Shown here one piece after another: positions 8,360-16,327 of a stretch of 30,737 nucleotides of DNA. The DNA is from a virus: positions 1 through 30,737 of IMG/VR virus record IMGVR_UViG_3300037065_000029, one strand, 5' to 3'. The number at the start of each line of letters is the position of its first letter. Within the stretch, counting starts at the first letter, position 1. Both the position numbers and the translations under genes were made by a program. Under the pieces are notes generated by a model, which was not told the origin of the DNA, ran no database searches, and was given only the letters and a program-made list of their open reading frames with translations.

Positions 8360-8520
8360 GACGGGTCCCGCTCGAGGGGGGACGCGAAGCCCGGCGGAAC
8401 CGGTGGGGTCGGCGCCGCCGTCAGCGTGAGCGCGTAACCGAACGACCCGACGATCCCCTTGAGCTGGTCGAGGGTCACCGTCCCGGGGATCCCGTCGGGC
8501 AGCGGCGTCGGGACGCTCAC
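8356..8520 (-). CDS. Short protein (54 aa), function unknown
   Basis: GTG 8520 overlaps the excisionase-like gene's stop (GTGA), and the stop overlaps the next start (GTGA). The peptide contains LDQLKGIVGSFGYALTL flanked by Pro-rich ends, so it may hold one amphipathic helix. The tight coupling on both sides is the main reason to call it. Confidence 0.55.
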   Translation of the reverse strand: MSVPTPLPDGIPGTVTLDQLKGIVGSFGYALTLTAAPTPPVPPGFASPLERDPS

Positions 8521-8789
8521 GAGCGTGCCCGCCCGCCACGCGGGGTGACCACCGTGAGGTGCCGGTCCGGCTTGGCGGCGGCCGCCTGGTGCTCGCACTT
8601 GACCCCGTCCAGGAACGCGTCCAAGCACTCCACCCGGACCAGCCAACGACCGCCCTTCACGCTCTGCGAGCCGTGCAGCTTCCCGGCCTCAAGGTCGAGG
8701 CGCACGGTGACGGGGTGCCGCTGGGATGTCGCAGCAACCTGCGCGACGTTCAGGCGTTGCGCTGGGCCGGTGCTCTCGTGGTTCGTCAT
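8517..8789 (-). CDS. Excisionase-like DNA-binding protein, lytic-operon copy (90 aa)
   Basis: The core LNVAQVAATSQRHPVTV forms the helix-turn-helix of a MerR/Xis-type winged helix, followed by a wing (GGRWLVRVECLDAFLDG). It is about 72% identical over 57 residues (41 of 57 by my count) to the protein at 10170-10409 next to the integrase; both share GGRWLVR, ECLDAFLDG and CEHQ. In this operon, directly after the Cro-like gene, it would be made in lytic growth and on induction, which fits a recombination directionality factor. A second regulator is the alternative. ATG 8789 overlaps the Cro-like stop (ATGA). Confidence 0.7.
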   Translation of the reverse strand: MTNHESTGPAQRLNVAQVAATSQRHPVTVRLDLEAGKLHGSQSVKGGRWLVRVECLDAFLDGVKCEHQAAAAKPDRHLTVVTPRGGRARS

Positions 8790-9049
8790 GGCGTGCTCAC
8801 CGGTGCGGCCGCGGCCCGCGCGGAGTGCTGCTCGATGATCTCGAACGCCTCCCCGAGCCCCAGGCCGGTGAAGCGGGTGAGGGCGGCCATGAATGCGGGC
8901 GACGGTGGGATCTCCTCGTTGCGCACCCGGACGAGCGTCGCCCTGGACGTGTTCAGCGCCTGCGCGAGCGCGTGATCGGAGGTGATCATGTGGATCTGCT
9001 TGATCCGGGCGAGCATCCCGGGCTTGAGGCGAAGCGTTAGTTCAACCAC
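8786..9049 (-). CDS. Cro-like helix-turn-helix regulator (87 aa)
   Basis: The protein carries a helix-turn-helix (DHALAQALNTSRATLVRVRN) followed by a helical segment (PSPAFMAALTRFTGLGLGEAFEII), the layout of small lambda-repressor-like proteins. It is the first gene of the minus-strand early operon and is divergent from the repressor, the position of cro. I chose GTG 9049, which has AGGGGG about 11 nt upstream; ATG 9016 is a possible shorter start, and the longer frame to 9139 lacks a ribosome site. It probably binds operators in 9050-9216 and represses the lysogeny promoter. Confidence 0.75.
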   Translation of the reverse strand: MVELTLRLKPGMLARIKQIHMITSDHALAQALNTSRATLVRVRNEEIPPSPAFMAALTRFTGLGLGEAFEIIEQHSARAAAAPVSTP

Positions 9050-9216
9050 GAGTTGTTGTACCCCCTGCTGATGAGGCCGTGTACCTCGAACACCTGTGAG
9101 CCTGCCACCGCGTTGCGCCAACTCTGACCAAACTTTCACCCCCTCACCTGGGCATTCGGGTGACAGTGCAGGTCAAACGGTTGTCGGTGTTCCAGAATTG
9201 AGGCAGTATTGCCCGC
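9050..9216. promoter_or_regulatory. Divergent immunity switch region
   Basis: This is the intergenic region between the Cro-like gene (minus) and the repressor (plus). Candidate operator elements are GTGT/ACAC arms around 9080-9094, TGAC/GTCA half-sites separated by 7 nt (9161-9175), and GGCA/TGCC around the repressor -10 (9202-9213). The early promoter on the minus strand must lie here, but I cannot call its -35/-10 with confidence. Confidence 0.6.
9181..9209 (+). promoter_or_regulatory. Candidate repressor promoter (leaderless)
   Basis: TTGTCG at 9181-9186 and CAGTAT at 9204-9209 are separated by 17 nt. Initiation about 7 nt after the -10 would fall at or next to the repressor ATG (9217), and no Shine-Dalgarno sequence precedes that ATG. 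A leaderless repressor mRNA is therefore likely, as in several actinophages. A GGCA/TGCC inverted repeat overlaps the -10, placed for autoregulation. Confidence 0.5.
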
Positions 9217-9678
9217 ATGACGACATGGCCCGAATGGATCGCGACGACACTGCCACCACGGATCACCCTCAGGTCCATCGCCCGCACGATGGGCGACAGC
9301 CACAACTCCGTCACGCGCTGGCTCGCCCGCGAGCAGCCGCCAGCCGAGTTCGTGATCCGGCTCGCGCGCGAGTTCCGCGCTGACCCGATCGAAGGACTCA
9401 TTGCTGCCGGGTACCTGCACGCTGCCGAGGCGTCTGCCGTTGGCATCGTGTTGGCGCTCCACACGGCGACGGACCTGCAGCTCGCGAACGAGACCTACGC
9501 ACGCGTGCTCCGCGGAGCGGCGGGCCCCGAGCTCACCGACGGGGAGATCGCCGCCCGCGGCCTCGCCGCGGGACAACCCTCCGCGGGGGGGGGGGGGGCA
9601 GAGAGAATAATCCTTGACGGGCCCGACTCCTCTCCCGCGGGGGGGGGGGGGGGGATTCCGGGCGGGTCGCGGGGCTGA
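9217..9678 (+). CDS. Immunity repressor, helix-turn-helix (153 aa as sequenced)
   Basis: Residues about 15-70 hold a lambda-type DNA-binding domain (LRSIARTMGDSHNSVTRWLAR as two helices, then EFVIRLAREFRADPIEGLIAAGYL). The segment to about residue 120 is helical and could mediate dimer formation. No LexA-like peptidase domain is present, so induction is not by simple RecA-stimulated self-cleavage. It heads the plus-strand lysogeny operon opposite the Cro-like gene. The last 35 residues are encoded across G14 and G16 runs and are Gly-rich, so this C-terminus is unreliable: both other frames stop just after the first run (9608-9610 and 9615-9617), giving about 130-133 aa. Confidence 0.75.
   Translation: MTTWPEWIATTLPPRITLRSIARTMGDSHNSVTRWLAREQPPAEFVIRLAREFRADPIEGLIAAGYLHAAEASAVGIVLALHTATDLQLANETYARVLRGAAGPELTDGEIAARGLAAGQPSAGGGGAERIILDGPDSSPAGGGGGIPGGSRG
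9585..9598. repeat. G14 homopolymer in repressor gene
   Basis: Fourteen consecutive G lie within the repressor frame. A gain or loss of one base would move translation into frames that stop at 9610 or 9617. Confidence 0.9.
9639..9654. repeat. G16 homopolymer near repressor stop
   Basis: Sixteen consecutive G lie 40 bp after the G14 run and share a similar upstream flank (pyrimidine-rich, ending in CGC). It is the longest homopolymer in the window and lies just before the repressor stop at 9676. Confidence 0.9.
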
Positions 9679-9727
9679 CCCAGAACGCCGGTGACTGGGA
9701 CGGCCGCGAGCGCCGTCAGGTCGCGGC

Positions 9728-10018
9728 GTGAAGCGCCCCGCCGCGGCGCCGGTGCTCGCGGATCCCGGCGCTGGGCGCAGGTGGGACGTGCAGCGACTCG
9801 GGGTCGGGAGCCAGGCGCGGTGGCGGGCCGCCCTGCTGTCCCGGTCGGGCACGCTCATCGGGTACGTCGGGGAGTACGACAACGGCTGGGGCGCGAACAC
9901 CAAGACGCACGGGCGCATGGGGCTGTGCGGGCGGGACGGGTACACCACGGCGCAGGCCGCCGCGGACGCGCTCCTGACGGCCCGTGCGGGCGCCGCCGGA
10001 CGGCGGTGGCGGGGCTGA
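9728..10018 (+). CDS. Lysogeny-operon protein of unknown function (96 aa)
   Basis: The central part (ARWRAALLSRSGTLIGYVGE, then NTKTHGRMGLCGRDGYTTA) is probably beta-rich and ends in an Ala-rich helix. I do not recognise the family. GTG 9728 has only a weak AGG upstream. The stop overlaps the next gene's ATG (TGATG), so it is coupled to the gene at 10018. Being between repressor and integrase, it may be expressed from the prophage and could be a lysogenic or exclusion factor, but nothing in the sequence demonstrates this. Confidence 0.55.
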   Translation: MKRPAAAPVLADPGAGRRWDVQRLGVGSQARWRAALLSRSGTLIGYVGEYDNGWGANTKTHGRMGLCGRDGYTTAQAAADALLTARAGAAGRRWRG

Positions 10019-10173
10019 TGGCCCGGCCGACGTCCGGCGACGAGCTCTATGCCCTCGCGCTGATGCTTGAGCGCGAGTACGCCCGCGGCGTGCTCGCCGG
10101 GCGGGCCGAGGACACCACCACCGGCGCGAGGCTCAGCACCGACACCACCACCGAAAACCTGGAGGAGCAATGA
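10018..10173 (+). CDS. Short lysogeny-operon protein (51 aa)
   Basis: The N-terminal half is helical (SGDELYALALMLEREYARGV) and the rest Thr-rich. It is joined to its neighbours by TGATG (upstream) and ATGA (downstream) overlaps, the main support that it is translated. The same frame is open further upstream, but that part overlaps the 96-aa gene and is Arg-rich shadow sequence. Function unknown. Confidence 0.55.
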   Translation: MARPTSGDELYALALMLEREYARGVLAGRAEDTTTGARLSTDTTTENLEEQ

Positions 10174-10409
10174 TCGCCAAACGTCTCATCGTTGCCGAGG
10201 TCGTCGAGATCTCCCGGCGGCACCCGATCACCGTGTATCGCGACCTCGAGTCAGGCGCGTTGCACGGCACGCAGAGCATGAAGGGCGGCCGGTGGCTGGT
10301 CCGGGAGGAGTGCCTGGACGCGTTCCTCGACGGCGATCTGTGCGAGCACCAGGGGCCGCACCCGCACCTGCGGGTCGTCGGGGCACCGGCCCGGAAGCGG
10401 GGCGTGTGA
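10170..10409 (+). CDS. Excisionase-like DNA-binding protein, integrase-operon copy (79 aa)
   Basis: Residues 5-28 (RLIVAEVVEISRRHPITVYR and following) form a MerR/Xis-type helix-turn-helix, followed by the wing GGRWLVREECLDAFLDG. It is a close paralog of the lytic-operon protein at 8517-8789. The gene is followed immediately by integrase with a TGATG overlap, the common place for xis. As it would be made together with integrase from the lysogeny transcript, it may instead be a regulator or an antagonist of the lytic copy. ATG 10170 overlaps the previous stop, with GGAGGAG just upstream. Confidence 0.75.
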   Translation: MIAKRLIVAEVVEISRRHPITVYRDLESGALHGTQSMKGGRWLVREECLDAFLDGDLCEHQGPHPHLRVVGAPARKRGV

Positions 10410-11578
10410 TGGCCTGGACGCGCACCCTGGCCTCGGGCCGGTACCAGGGCCTGTACCGCGGGCCGGACGGGAAGGTCCGCACCGCCGCCGGCGGCCCGTT
10501 CGTCCACAAGGCCAAGGCCCGCCGGGCGGCCGAGGACGCGGAGGACGACGCGCGCAAGCCGGGCTGGCGCGACCCGCAGGCCGGGCGCACGACGTTCGGG
10601 GCCTGGTGCGAGGCGTGGTGGCCGACGCGGGTGGTCGAGGAGTCCACGATGCGCTCGGACGTCGGGCGCCGCGACCTGCACCTGCTGCCGCGGTGGGGCC
10701 GGGTCGAGCTCGCCGACATCACCCGCCAGGACGTGCGCGCATGGACCGCGGAGCTGCGGGTGCGCGCTGACGGCAAGCCCCGCGCCGCGACGACCGTGCA
10801 GCGCATCGTGCACCTGCTGTCCGCGGCGCTGACCGCCGCGGTGGACGCGGAGATCCTCGTGTCCAACCCCGCGGCCCGGATGAAGGTCGGCGGCGGGCAG
10901 GTCAGCGTCGAACGGTTCCTCACCCACGACGAGTTCGACGCCGCGCTCGAGCACCTCGACGGGGCGTACCGGCGGATGGCGCTGCTGCTGGTCGGCACGG
11001 GCATGCGGTGGGGTGAGGCCGCGGGGCTGCACGAGTCGCGCGTGGACCGCGAGCGCGGGGTCGTCCAGGTCGCGGAGGTCTGGTCGATGACCGGGCGGTG
11101 CCTGAAGGCGTACCCGAAGGGCCGCAAGCACCGCCAGGTCCCCCTGCCGGAGTGGGTCGAGCTCGACGAGCCGACCCCCGGGCCGTGCGGCTACCCGCAC
11201 CCCGGGATGCCCACGTGCCGGTCCGGGCTGGTGGTCACGACCGACGCCGGCGCCGTGATGGACGAGAGCGCGTTCTACAAGCGCTGGGTGGGCGCGTGCG
11301 AGGCGGCCGGGCTCGGCCGCGTGCGCCCACACGACCTCCGACACACCTACGCGTCCTGGCTGCTGCAGTCCCGGGGGGTGTCCCTGGCCGAGGTCGGCAA
11401 GCTGCTCGGGCACGTCTCGCCAGTCACCACCCAGCGGTACGCCCACCTCGAGGACACCCCCGCCGCCGCCGTGCTCGCCGCCCTGCGGGGCCCGGGACGT
11501 GCAGCAGAAGTGCAGCAACCAGCCGCAATTCGGGGCTTTCCGGCACTACGCGTCATCGACGGCGGATTGGCTGGATAG
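10409..11578 (+). CDS. int: Tyrosine-family phage integrase (389 aa)
   Basis: The integrase catalyses site-specific recombination between attP and the host tRNA gene. It has an arm-binding N-terminal domain (residues 1-55), a core-binding SAM-like domain (about 60-160) and a catalytic domain with R200 (GTGMRWGEA), the Lys-bearing hairpin around 237-243, H308-x2-R311 (RPHDLRHTYAS), H335 (LGHVS) and the nucleophile Y344 (TQRYAHLE). A loop at 256-272 carries two Cys (C260, C270). The ATG overlaps the xis-like stop (TGATG). The final 30 residues are encoded by DNA that includes one of the attP arm repeats (11493-11517). Only the exact family subgroup is unsure. Confidence 0.97.
   Translation: MAWTRTLASGRYQGLYRGPDGKVRTAAGGPFVHKAKARRAAEDAEDDARKPGWRDPQAGRTTFGAWCEAWWPTRVVEESTMRSDVGRRDLHLLPRWGRVELADITRQDVRAWTAELRVRADGKPRAATTVQRIVHLLSAALTAAVDAEILVSNPAARMKVGGGQVSVERFLTHDEFDAALEHLDGAYRRMALLLVGTGMRWGEAAGLHESRVDRERGVVQVAEVWSMTGRCLKAYPKGRKHRQVPLPEWVELDEPTPGPCGYPHPGMPTCRSGLVVTTDAGAVMDESAFYKRWVGACEAAGLGRVRPHDLRHTYASWLLQSRGVSLAEVGKLLGHVSPVTTQRYAHLEDTPAAAVLAALRGPGRAAEVQQPAAIRGFPALRVIDGGLAG
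11493..11517 (+). repeat. Left arm-type repeat of attP (inside int)
   Basis: This 25-bp sequence is identical to 11734-11758. It contains two GTGCAGCA units whose starts are 12 bp apart, about one helical turn. The copy lies inside the integrase coding sequence, about 130 bp before the attP core. Confidence 0.75.
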
Positions 11579-11584
11579 TGCCTC

Positions 11585-11594
11585 TGACCTGCAC
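11585..11594 (+). repeat. TGACCTGCAC element, left of attP core
   Basis: This 10-mer recurs at 11696-11705 on the other side of the core and, inverted, at 9166-9175 in the switch region. It is a candidate integrase, Xis or repressor binding site. Two more copies lie in late genes (16791-16800 and 24138-24147), which weakens the case. Confidence 0.4.
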
Positions 11595-11648
11595 GGATCT
11601 ACTCCAACCAACGCCAGACTGCACCGTCCAGTGGTCCCCCGTAACGCG

Positions 11649-11690
11649 CTCATAATCCGTCGGTCGTGGGTTCAAGCCCCACCTGCCCCA
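11649..11690 (+). other. attP: attP core: 3' half of tRNA-Met(CAT)
   Basis: The sequence gives an anticodon loop CTCATAA (11649-11655), a perfect T-arm (GTGGG at 11666-11670, loop, CCCAC at 11678-11682), a 3' acceptor strand CTGCCCC (11683-11689) and the discriminator A (11690). No D-arm or matching 5' acceptor strand (GGGGCAG) exists upstream, and the 5' anticodon-stem strand does not pair fully, so this is not a functional tRNA. It is the identity segment that rebuilds the host tRNA gene on integration. It lies 70 bp after the int stop on the same strand. The exact left border of identity cannot be seen without the host sequence. Confidence 0.88.
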
Positions 11691-11695
11691 CCCTG

Positions 11696-11705
11696 TGACC
11701 TGCAC
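11696..11705 (+). repeat. TGACCTGCAC element, right of attP core
   Basis: This is a second copy of the 10-mer found at 11585-11594, placed 6 bp after the core. Together the copies bracket the core. Confidence 0.4.
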
Positions 11706-11707
11706 AT

Positions 11708-11741
11708 ACGTCCCGCCCCCCGGTTCCGGAGGGCGGGACGT
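11708..11741 (+). terminator. Hairpin after int and attP
   Basis: ACGTCCCGCCC (11708-11718) pairs perfectly with GGGCGGGACGT (11731-11741), an 11-bp GC-rich stem with a 12-nt loop. No T-run follows. It is a likely terminator of the lysogeny operon; its right arm overlaps the right arm-type repeat. Confidence 0.55.
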
Positions 11742-11758
11742 GCAGCAGAAGTGCAGCA
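11734..11758 (+). repeat. Right arm-type repeat of attP
   Basis: This is the second copy of the 25-bp direct repeat at 11493-11517, about 45 bp beyond the core. With the left copy it frames attP in the manner of integrase arm-binding sites. Confidence 0.75.
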
Positions 11759-15011: not shown

Positions 15012-15374
15012 TCAGCTGGTGGCGTCCAGGGCGCGGACCGCGAGCCGGATCAGCGCGTTCACCTGTTGGGTGAGGGCGCGGACCTGGGCGACGGCCTGGG
15101 CGGTGGTCGGCGCACCCGCCGCGAGGTAGGTCGTGTTCGCTGCGAGCGCGGTACGGGCCTGGGCTTGCAGCGTCGCGGCGTTGACGAGCTGCGCGGTCTC
15201 CGCCGGTGGGCGGACGGCCACCACGGGGGTGCCGGTGATGGGGTCGAGGGTCGTCACGGCGGCGACGACGAGCGGGACGAGGTCCCCGAGGCGGGAGTGC
15301 CACAGGGCGTGCGCGTCGAGGTCGGAGACGATGGCCCCGCACGGGGTGCAGAGGGCGTATACGAACGTTGTCAC
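15012..15374 (-). CDS. Tail-associated protein of unknown function (120 aa)
   Basis: The N-terminus has a C-x2-C pair (YALCTPCGAIV) and a His-rich stretch (DAHALWHSRLGD). The C-terminal half is Ala/Gln-rich helical (QAVAQVRALTQQVNALIRL), possibly a trimeric coiled coil. GTG 15374 overlaps the stop of the 317-aa tail protein (TAGTG). The position among tail-tip genes suggests a structural or assembly role, but no family is visible. Confidence 0.6.
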   Translation of the reverse strand: MTTFVYALCTPCGAIVSDLDAHALWHSRLGDLVPLVVAAVTTLDPITGTPVVAVRPPAETAQLVNAATLQAQARTALAANTTYLAAGAPTTAQAVAQVRALTQQVNALIRLAVRALDATS

Positions 15375-16327
15375 TAGATCGCCTTCGTGTAGTTGACCGT
15401 CAGCGCCATGCCGTCGGCGAGGGAGGTGCCCCGGACCGCGAGGTACGCGGCGCCGGTGGTGCACAGGCCCTTGTACCCGCCGGTGCGGAACGCTTCGCAG
15501 ATGGACGCGTCCAGGCCGACCTGGCCGAGGCCGGCGGGGCCCGGCCCGGACGGGGTGGGTGGGCCGGGGTACGGGGTGCCCTGCGGGGTCCCCTGGAAGA
15601 CGGGTGCGCCGGCGCCGGTGGCCAGCTGGGAGTTGACGGTCATCGACGTGATCGCCAGCGCGCCCAGGCCGACGACCTGGTCGCCGTAGACCGCGATGCC
15701 CGTCATGGGCCCCGACCCGTACTGGTTGCCCTGGTAGAGCGACGACGGGCCGCCGTACCTCGAGGTGTTCCAGCGGTCGTAGGCGGGGACTCGCGCGGAC
15801 CATGACCCGGACCAGGTCGGCAGGATCAGCGACTGGAAGGTGGCGACAGTGGGGGCGGTGGGGGCCAGTGGCGCGGCCGGCGCGGCGGGGGCGGCCGGGG
15901 GGTTGCCGAGGGGGCCCAGCACGATGCCCCCGAGCGTGGAGGCCGGGTCGAGGAAGACCGCGACGTTCCCGGAGACCGAGTACGTCGCCGACACGTGCGG
16001 CAGGACCATGGCGGTGCCGTCCACGGTGACCGTCAGGCGCGAGTTGGGTGCGTCGATGGCGGTGACCACACCGGGGCGCCAGAGGGGTGCCGGCAGAGAG
16101 ATGACCCCGGCGATGTACTGGCCGGCACCCGACCGGGCGGGGTCGCGCACCACGGCGACGACGTCGCCGACGCGGTACGGCCCCGCGATCCGGCGCAGGG
16201 TCACCGCCGACCCGTCCAGGTCGACGGTGACGCGCGCGTTGGTGGCGTCGACGGCCAGGACCTTGGCGGGTGCCCACGGCCGCTCGTCGCCGGGCTCGAA
16301 CAGAGCGGAGGCGAGGTCCGCGCTCAC
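15374..16327 (-). CDS. Minor tail protein with tandem OB-like repeats (317 aa)
   Basis: The first 115 residues contain two similar units: AKVLAVDATNARVTVDLDG to IAGVI (about 20-75), and GVVTAIDAPNSRLTVTVDG to IVLGPL (about 83-137). Each looks like a small beta-barrel of the kind found in phage baseplate hub or spike proteins. A Pro/Ala linker follows, then a beta-rich C-terminal domain (FQSLILPTWSGSWSARV and SGPMTGIAVYGDQVV) that may contact the host. GTG 16327 overlaps the upstream stop (GTGA). It would sit at the tail tip. Confidence 0.7.
   Translation of the reverse strand: MSADLASALFEPGDERPWAPAKVLAVDATNARVTVDLDGSAVTLRRIAGPYRVGDVVAVVRDPARSGAGQYIAGVISLPAPLWRPGVVTAIDAPNSRLTVTVDGTAMVLPHVSATYSVSGNVAVFLDPASTLGGIVLGPLGNPPAAPAAPAAPLAPTAPTVATFQSLILPTWSGSWSARVPAYDRWNTSRYGGPSSLYQGNQYGSGPMTGIAVYGDQVVGLGALAITSMTVNSQLATGAGAPVFQGTPQGTPYPGPPTPSGPGPAGLGQVGLDASICEAFRTGGYKGLCTTGAAYLAVRGTSLADGMALTVNYTKAI

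Follow-up and report, generated by a model that had tools for sequence, protein, structure and literature searches.

For a tyrosine integrase, the choice between integration and excision depends on a single small partner. Vibrio pathogenicity island-2 (VPI-2) carries two paralogous recombination directionality factors (RDFs), VefA and VefB, with one tyrosine integrase, and only VefA is needed for excision (PMC3014918). The small RDFs Apl of phage 186 and Cox of phage P2 act at att as well as at lytic/lysogenic promoters (PMC7498355). For phages, a partial search of the literature found no published case of two RDF paralogues with one integrase.

The window analyzed here is the whole 30,737-nucleotide stretch (positions 1 to 30,737) of IMG/VR virus record IMGVR_UViG_3300037065_000029, a 30.7-kb virus contig of 71.6% G+C. 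It encodes two excisionase-like proteins, P1 on the minus strand (8517-8789) and P2 on the plus strand (10170-10409), and by strand and gene order these do sit on opposite arms of the immunity switch, as the original prediction had it (Table 1). The paralogue pair is real: both reading frames are intact, 41 of 57 residues are identical in an alignment of the core from RL to CEHQ, exactly as first counted, and the motifs GGRWLVR, ECLDAFLDG and CEHQ are common to both proteins. BLASTP aligns them with 47/72 identities (65%, 93 bits, E 7e-32), and their DNA forms an inverted repeat of 174 nt with 78% identity (8585-8758 / 10180-10353). Whether the query was P2 or a 12-row family profile, P1 and P2 were the only family members that came up in the record.

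Table 1. Positions of switch, integration operon and attachment site features in the window
Feature	Position	Strand	Description
P1	8517..8789	-	90 aa, ATG start; excisionase-like winged-helix protein in the standard place
cro-like HTH protein	8786..9046	-	leads the leftward (lytic) operon; start approximate; PHROG 9103 transcriptional repressor, E 4e-15
third TGACCTGCAC	9166..9175	-	between cro and repressor; candidate shared binding site
immunity repressor-like HTH protein	9217..9678	+	PHROG 16278, 19579, 5301, E about 2e-9; C-terminal part doubtful (two poly-G runs)
orf96	9728..10018	+	96-aa ORF; first of the coupled int operon genes
orf51	10018..10173	+	51-aa ORF (from translation); overlaps both neighbours
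P2	10170..10409	+	79 aa, ATG start; second excisionase-like protein, extra copy
tyrosine integrase (int)	10409..11578	+	389 aa; Pfam Phage_integrase E 2e-23; PHROG 1 E 4e-62
attP left arm	11497..11517	+	tandem GTGCAGCA, 11-bp spacing; inside the int 3' end; probable integrase arm sites
TGACCTGCAC left of attP core	11585..11594	+	
attP core	11648..11692	+	3' half of a CAT-anticodon tRNA; resembles phage-borne tRNA-Met genes; aligns with relatives' att sites
TGACCTGCAC just right of attP core	11696..11705	+	TGACCTGC invariant here in four aligned phages
attP right arm	11738..11758	+	second tandem GTGCAGCA pair, 11-bp spacing

The stop codon of the cro-like gene overlaps the start of P1 (ATGA). 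P2 lies directly before int, its TGA (10407-10409) overlapping the int ATG that begins at 10409, and belongs to a four-gene operon of head-to-tail overlaps, orf96-orf51-P2-int, in which P2 is coupled to both orf51 and int by overlapping start/stop codons (ATGA). A ribosome-binding-site-like GGAGGAG is found just upstream of P2, at about 10161-10167. Judged by strand and gene order, P1 would be expressed in lytic growth and P2 in lysogeny. A conserved orf96-orf51-P2 cassette was sought and not found; relatives of orf96 occur in two other phage contigs, without a xis beside them.

AlphaFold models of both proteins are winged helices, with a pLDDT of 82 for P2 and 78 for P1 and about 90 or more in the cores. 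The best solved fold matches of both models are BldC-DNA complexes, and BldC was also found by profile search; RacA and MerR proteins, RdfS, Pukovnik Xis, Cox of phage P2 and Tn916 Xis match with lower significance. Over these fold matches, BldC included, Foldseek gives E about 0.002-0.8 and a probability of mostly 0.7-1. Among family models, HTH_17 matches P2 with 28.1 bits (E 2.5e-6), above its cutoff of 27, and P1 with 23.4 bits (E 7e-5), below it. TIGR01764 (excise) scores P2 at 17 against a cutoff of 28.8 and has no match to P1, and PHROG 1840 (excisionase) matches P1 at E 0.0018. At 79 and 90 aa, both proteins are predicted to be of the small MerR-like winged-helix kind (less than about 100 aa) found among RDFs, and the same element carries a tyrosine integrase (int, 10409-11578) and an attP with a tRNA-like core and arm repeats.

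Relatives were gathered by excisionase and integrase searches and comprise phage MinS1, Gordonia phages, a Microbacterium jejuense prophage locus and ~30 IMG/VR contigs; some of these records are fragments, of which the int-proximal regions were read. Each of the 30 related records searched whole with the 12-row profile has exactly one family member, compared with two in this record, which bears out for these relatives the earlier remark that most phages carry a single xis. Wherever both genes are in view among the relatives, the single excisionase lies on the strand opposite int, and in those read in detail it is either adjacent to a small HTH gene or separated from one by a single gene. No excisionase-like gene directly before int was found in any of ~35 related viruses, and a search of related phages for a P1/P2-type pair found none, so that the pair is unusual among these relatives. 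Scanning viral and genome collections with single proteins gave nothing closer, and there were no plasmid matches. Because the relatives' sole xis follows the cro-like gene and lies opposite int, as P1 does, P1 is by position the counterpart of the standard excisionase, and P2 by the same comparison is the extra copy.

Some further features of these relatives were observed in passing. Phage MinS1 has an unannotated 79-aa excisionase-like ORF just past attP (L003:6148-6387, about 15147-15386 in the MinS1 record), the similarity of which to P2 is weak (BLASTP E 6e-4) and which is unmatched by the family profile at E 0.001. MinS1 (MZ923504.1) carries the label of a Microcystis phage, but actinobacterial phages are the group in which its integrase and excisionase fall, and the host assignment may deserve a check. 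A subgroup of excisionases (L031, L033-L036, L039-L041) has a different recognition helix, of TVxDACR type, which mostly goes with a ACTCCAATG-type sequence at the integrase end and hints at coupled change of protein and att.

Trees of 32 and of 12 sequences both pair P1 with P2 (support 99/90 and 94/92, respectively), which places the duplication within the lineage of this phage; an Asp and a Phe that are rare in the family occur in both proteins. Acquisition of P2 from another phage family was also considered and is unsupported, given this sister relationship and the failure to find another xis-int pair of the family. Over 60 aligned codons, differences fall at 20 of 46 synonymous sites versus 21 of 134 replacement sites (Fisher p 4e-4), giving a dN/dS of 0.26 (NG86) or 0.10 (ML) and a dS of about 0.67-1.5. 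Relative-rate counts put the divergence of the two copies as about even (e.g. 4 vs 5 unique changes with L011); branch lengths in the larger tree of 32 sequences are 0.25 for P2 and 0.57 for P1. Synonymous change thus outweighs replacement change, and by these measures the duplication is lineage-specific and neither recent nor degenerate, with both copies under constraint. The scenario that would have undone the original prediction, a recent degenerate duplicate, is contradicted by the open frames, the constraint (p 4e-4), the even rates and the dS of about 0.7-1.5. Its suggestion that the inverted copies could allow inversion of the 1.9-kb switch by homologous recombination fared less well: the longest perfectly identical stretch between P1 and P2 is only 14 nt, which is less than homologous recombination needs, and inversion is therefore unlikely.

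The wing and core residues LHGxQ, GGRW and C...H are kept in both proteins, and two adjacent recognition-helix residues differ, Arg30-Leu31 in P1 vs Tyr23-Arg24 in P2. By the T-x-R-R motif these residues correspond to Arg22 and Arg23 of lambda Xis, which contact DNA, both phosphate and bases (PMC7145599). In an alignment of 12 sequences the difference looked like a striking reciprocal loss of two invariant arginines; with 32 sequences the contact-type positions of P1 and P2 vary across the family, and that reading was dropped in favor of a plain difference at specificity positions. Such variation is as would be expected of positions that set specificity, and the differences between P1 and P2 may be specificity drift, since both positions vary across the family.

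From the computed homology, gene order, sister relationship, uniqueness among relatives, constraint, predicted fold and recognition-helix differences, we infer when each copy would be expressed, which of them would drive excision and where P2 would act. Our preferred reading, held tentatively and with somewhat less than even confidence, takes P1 as the working excisionase; P2, on this view, was retained and re-specialized as a partner that acts with Int at attP, on the switch or at its own control region. P1 and P2 would then be a duplicated excisionase (RDF) of which both copies have been kept by selection, and the job of the second copy is probably new or divided. Split roles, as originally proposed for the pair, may hold and are consistent with the data: both copies are under constraint and differ at DNA-contact positions. 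This pair is known from one genome only.

With int and xis on opposite strands, and int on the repressor's strand in this phage and in the annotated relatives, the gene order suggests that the lysogenic direction would yield Int but no Xis, with Xis made on induction. P1, which follows cro in the lytic operon and keeps the ancestral place, would most likely turn Int towards excision on induction. P2, in the int operon and in the repressor's direction, would probably be translated together with Int, and its coupling to int breaks the group's usual separation of int and xis. If a fully active excisionase accompanied each Int molecule made in the lysogenic direction, it would oppose stable integration; P2 is most likely not a stand-alone excisionase because one of full strength in that place would destabilize integration. 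P2 would bind, in a head-to-tail array, the att region and/or the control region of its own operon, and would tune or block P1-dependent excision. In a more specific form that we consider rather unlikely, the two diverged paralogues, made from opposite arms of the switch, would set directionality together: P2, co-translated with Int, would occupy overlapping att sites, either alone or in mixed head-to-tail filaments with P1, as a brake on excision or a primer for it.

Many other integrative elements have a xis next to int and co-transcribed with it, and on that model, the main alternative to our reading, P2 would be a full second excisionase, forming with int a coupled excision cassette whose promoter is off in a stable lysogen; P1 would now be a regulator, or the two would be used under different induction conditions. 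We regard this as unlikely. The int operon may have its own promoter, silent in the lysogen, in which case P2 and Int could be such a cassette, and P2 could be the working excisionase, as it is intact, passes the HTH_17 cutoff with a score slightly better than that of P1, is coupled to int and sits on the shorter of the two branches in the larger tree (0.25 vs 0.57). All relatives, however, have int opposite their sole xis and, where annotated, on the repressor's strand as here, and a simple scan, which is weak evidence, found no promoter between the repressor and int.

The attachment region bears on where P2 might act. The att pairs at 11-bp spacing look like integrase arm sites, and relative L014, whose integrase is 57% identical, has the same attP layout and the same GTGCAGCA pair. 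The 10-mer TGACCTGCAC that flanks the attP core, of which TGACCTGC is the first eight bases, has one exact copy in the switch; such a copy arises in 27/20,000 shuffles of the switch region, and as a link to att binding it is only suggestive. This copy is one of the points in favor of P2 acting mainly on transcription, of the switch or of the int operon, a regulatory task that Apl (phage 186) and Cox (phage P2) have besides their part in excision, an explanation that we hold to be quite unlikely. Repression of early promoters by RDFs is established (PMC7498355), the closest fold, BldC, is that of a regulator, and the 8-mer TGACCTGC is present in the switch of L015/L038 as well. L015/L038 carries only one excisionase, however, which weakens any special tie between P2 and the switch copy of TGACCTGC. 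Nor does any direct-repeat array at helical-turn spacing stand out in 9047-9216, where the best score is reached in 10-22% of shuffles.

Across the relatives, TGACCTGC(A) recurs in attP near the tRNA-like core (L003, L014/L024, L015/L038, L023, L026, L042, L043). The phages that bear it differ in their integrase arm repeats (GTGCAGCA, TGCCCCACG and others), which points to a conserved att element; we describe TGACCTGC as a conserved element only, and do not claim it as the Xis site.

Two poly-G runs, of 14 G (9585-9598) and 16 G (9639-9654), lie between P1 and P2 at the end of the repressor gene; they may be sequencing or assembly artefacts, which would make the repressor C-terminus unreliable. 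There is also a 12-G run at 1662-1673. That the second copy is functionally redundant, as the precedent of VefB, an RDF paralogue dispensable for excision, might suggest (PMC3014918), or that this virus contig of unclear provenance joins two related phages at the poly-G runs, is improbable, given that both copies are constrained, that gene order across the runs is as in relatives and G+C is 71.7% vs 71.6% on their two sides, and that P1 and P2 are sisters while no relative has a xis beside int, so that joining two ordinary phages would not give the position of P2.

Members of this phage family keep the integrase on one arm of the switch and its partner on the other; in the present phage, the gene for a diverged sister of that partner overlaps the integrase gene. 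If P2 does oppose or tune P1, the locus would be a natural example of RDF duplication followed by a division of roles, and, as far as the literature searched shows, a two-RDF switch undescribed for a phage integrase. Two purified 9-kDa proteins and a single att site would be enough to test the idea of split roles. If true, the pair would also offer a possible part for the control of integration vectors in actinobacteria.

The nearest systems in overall layout are the Gordonia phages Vendetta and Banquo, phage MinS1 and the Microbacterium jejuense prophage locus, which, like this phage, have int and the repressor on one strand and a cro-like gene and xis divergent from them; unlike it, they have one copy of xis and none directly before int. 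As predicted for P1 and P2, lambda Xis, Pukovnik Xis, RdfS and Tn916 Xis are winged-helix RDFs of tyrosine integrases, from which P1 and P2 differ in their low sequence similarity and in that each of those integrases has one RDF. BldC of Streptomyces (PDB 6AMA/6AMK), the closest solved fold, is a MerR-like winged helix that binds direct repeats head to tail and is 30-35% identical to P1 and P2 over about 53 residues; in contrast to them, it is a chromosomal developmental regulator without a link to an integrase. In the case of Apl and Cox, the latter among the fold matches above, one protein does both jobs, as against two copies here, where dual action is hypothetical. VefA and VefB resemble P1 and P2 as two RDF paralogues in one integrative element, but they are 46% rather than 65% identical, belong to an AlpA-like family, lie far apart on the island and are not coupled to the integrase gene.
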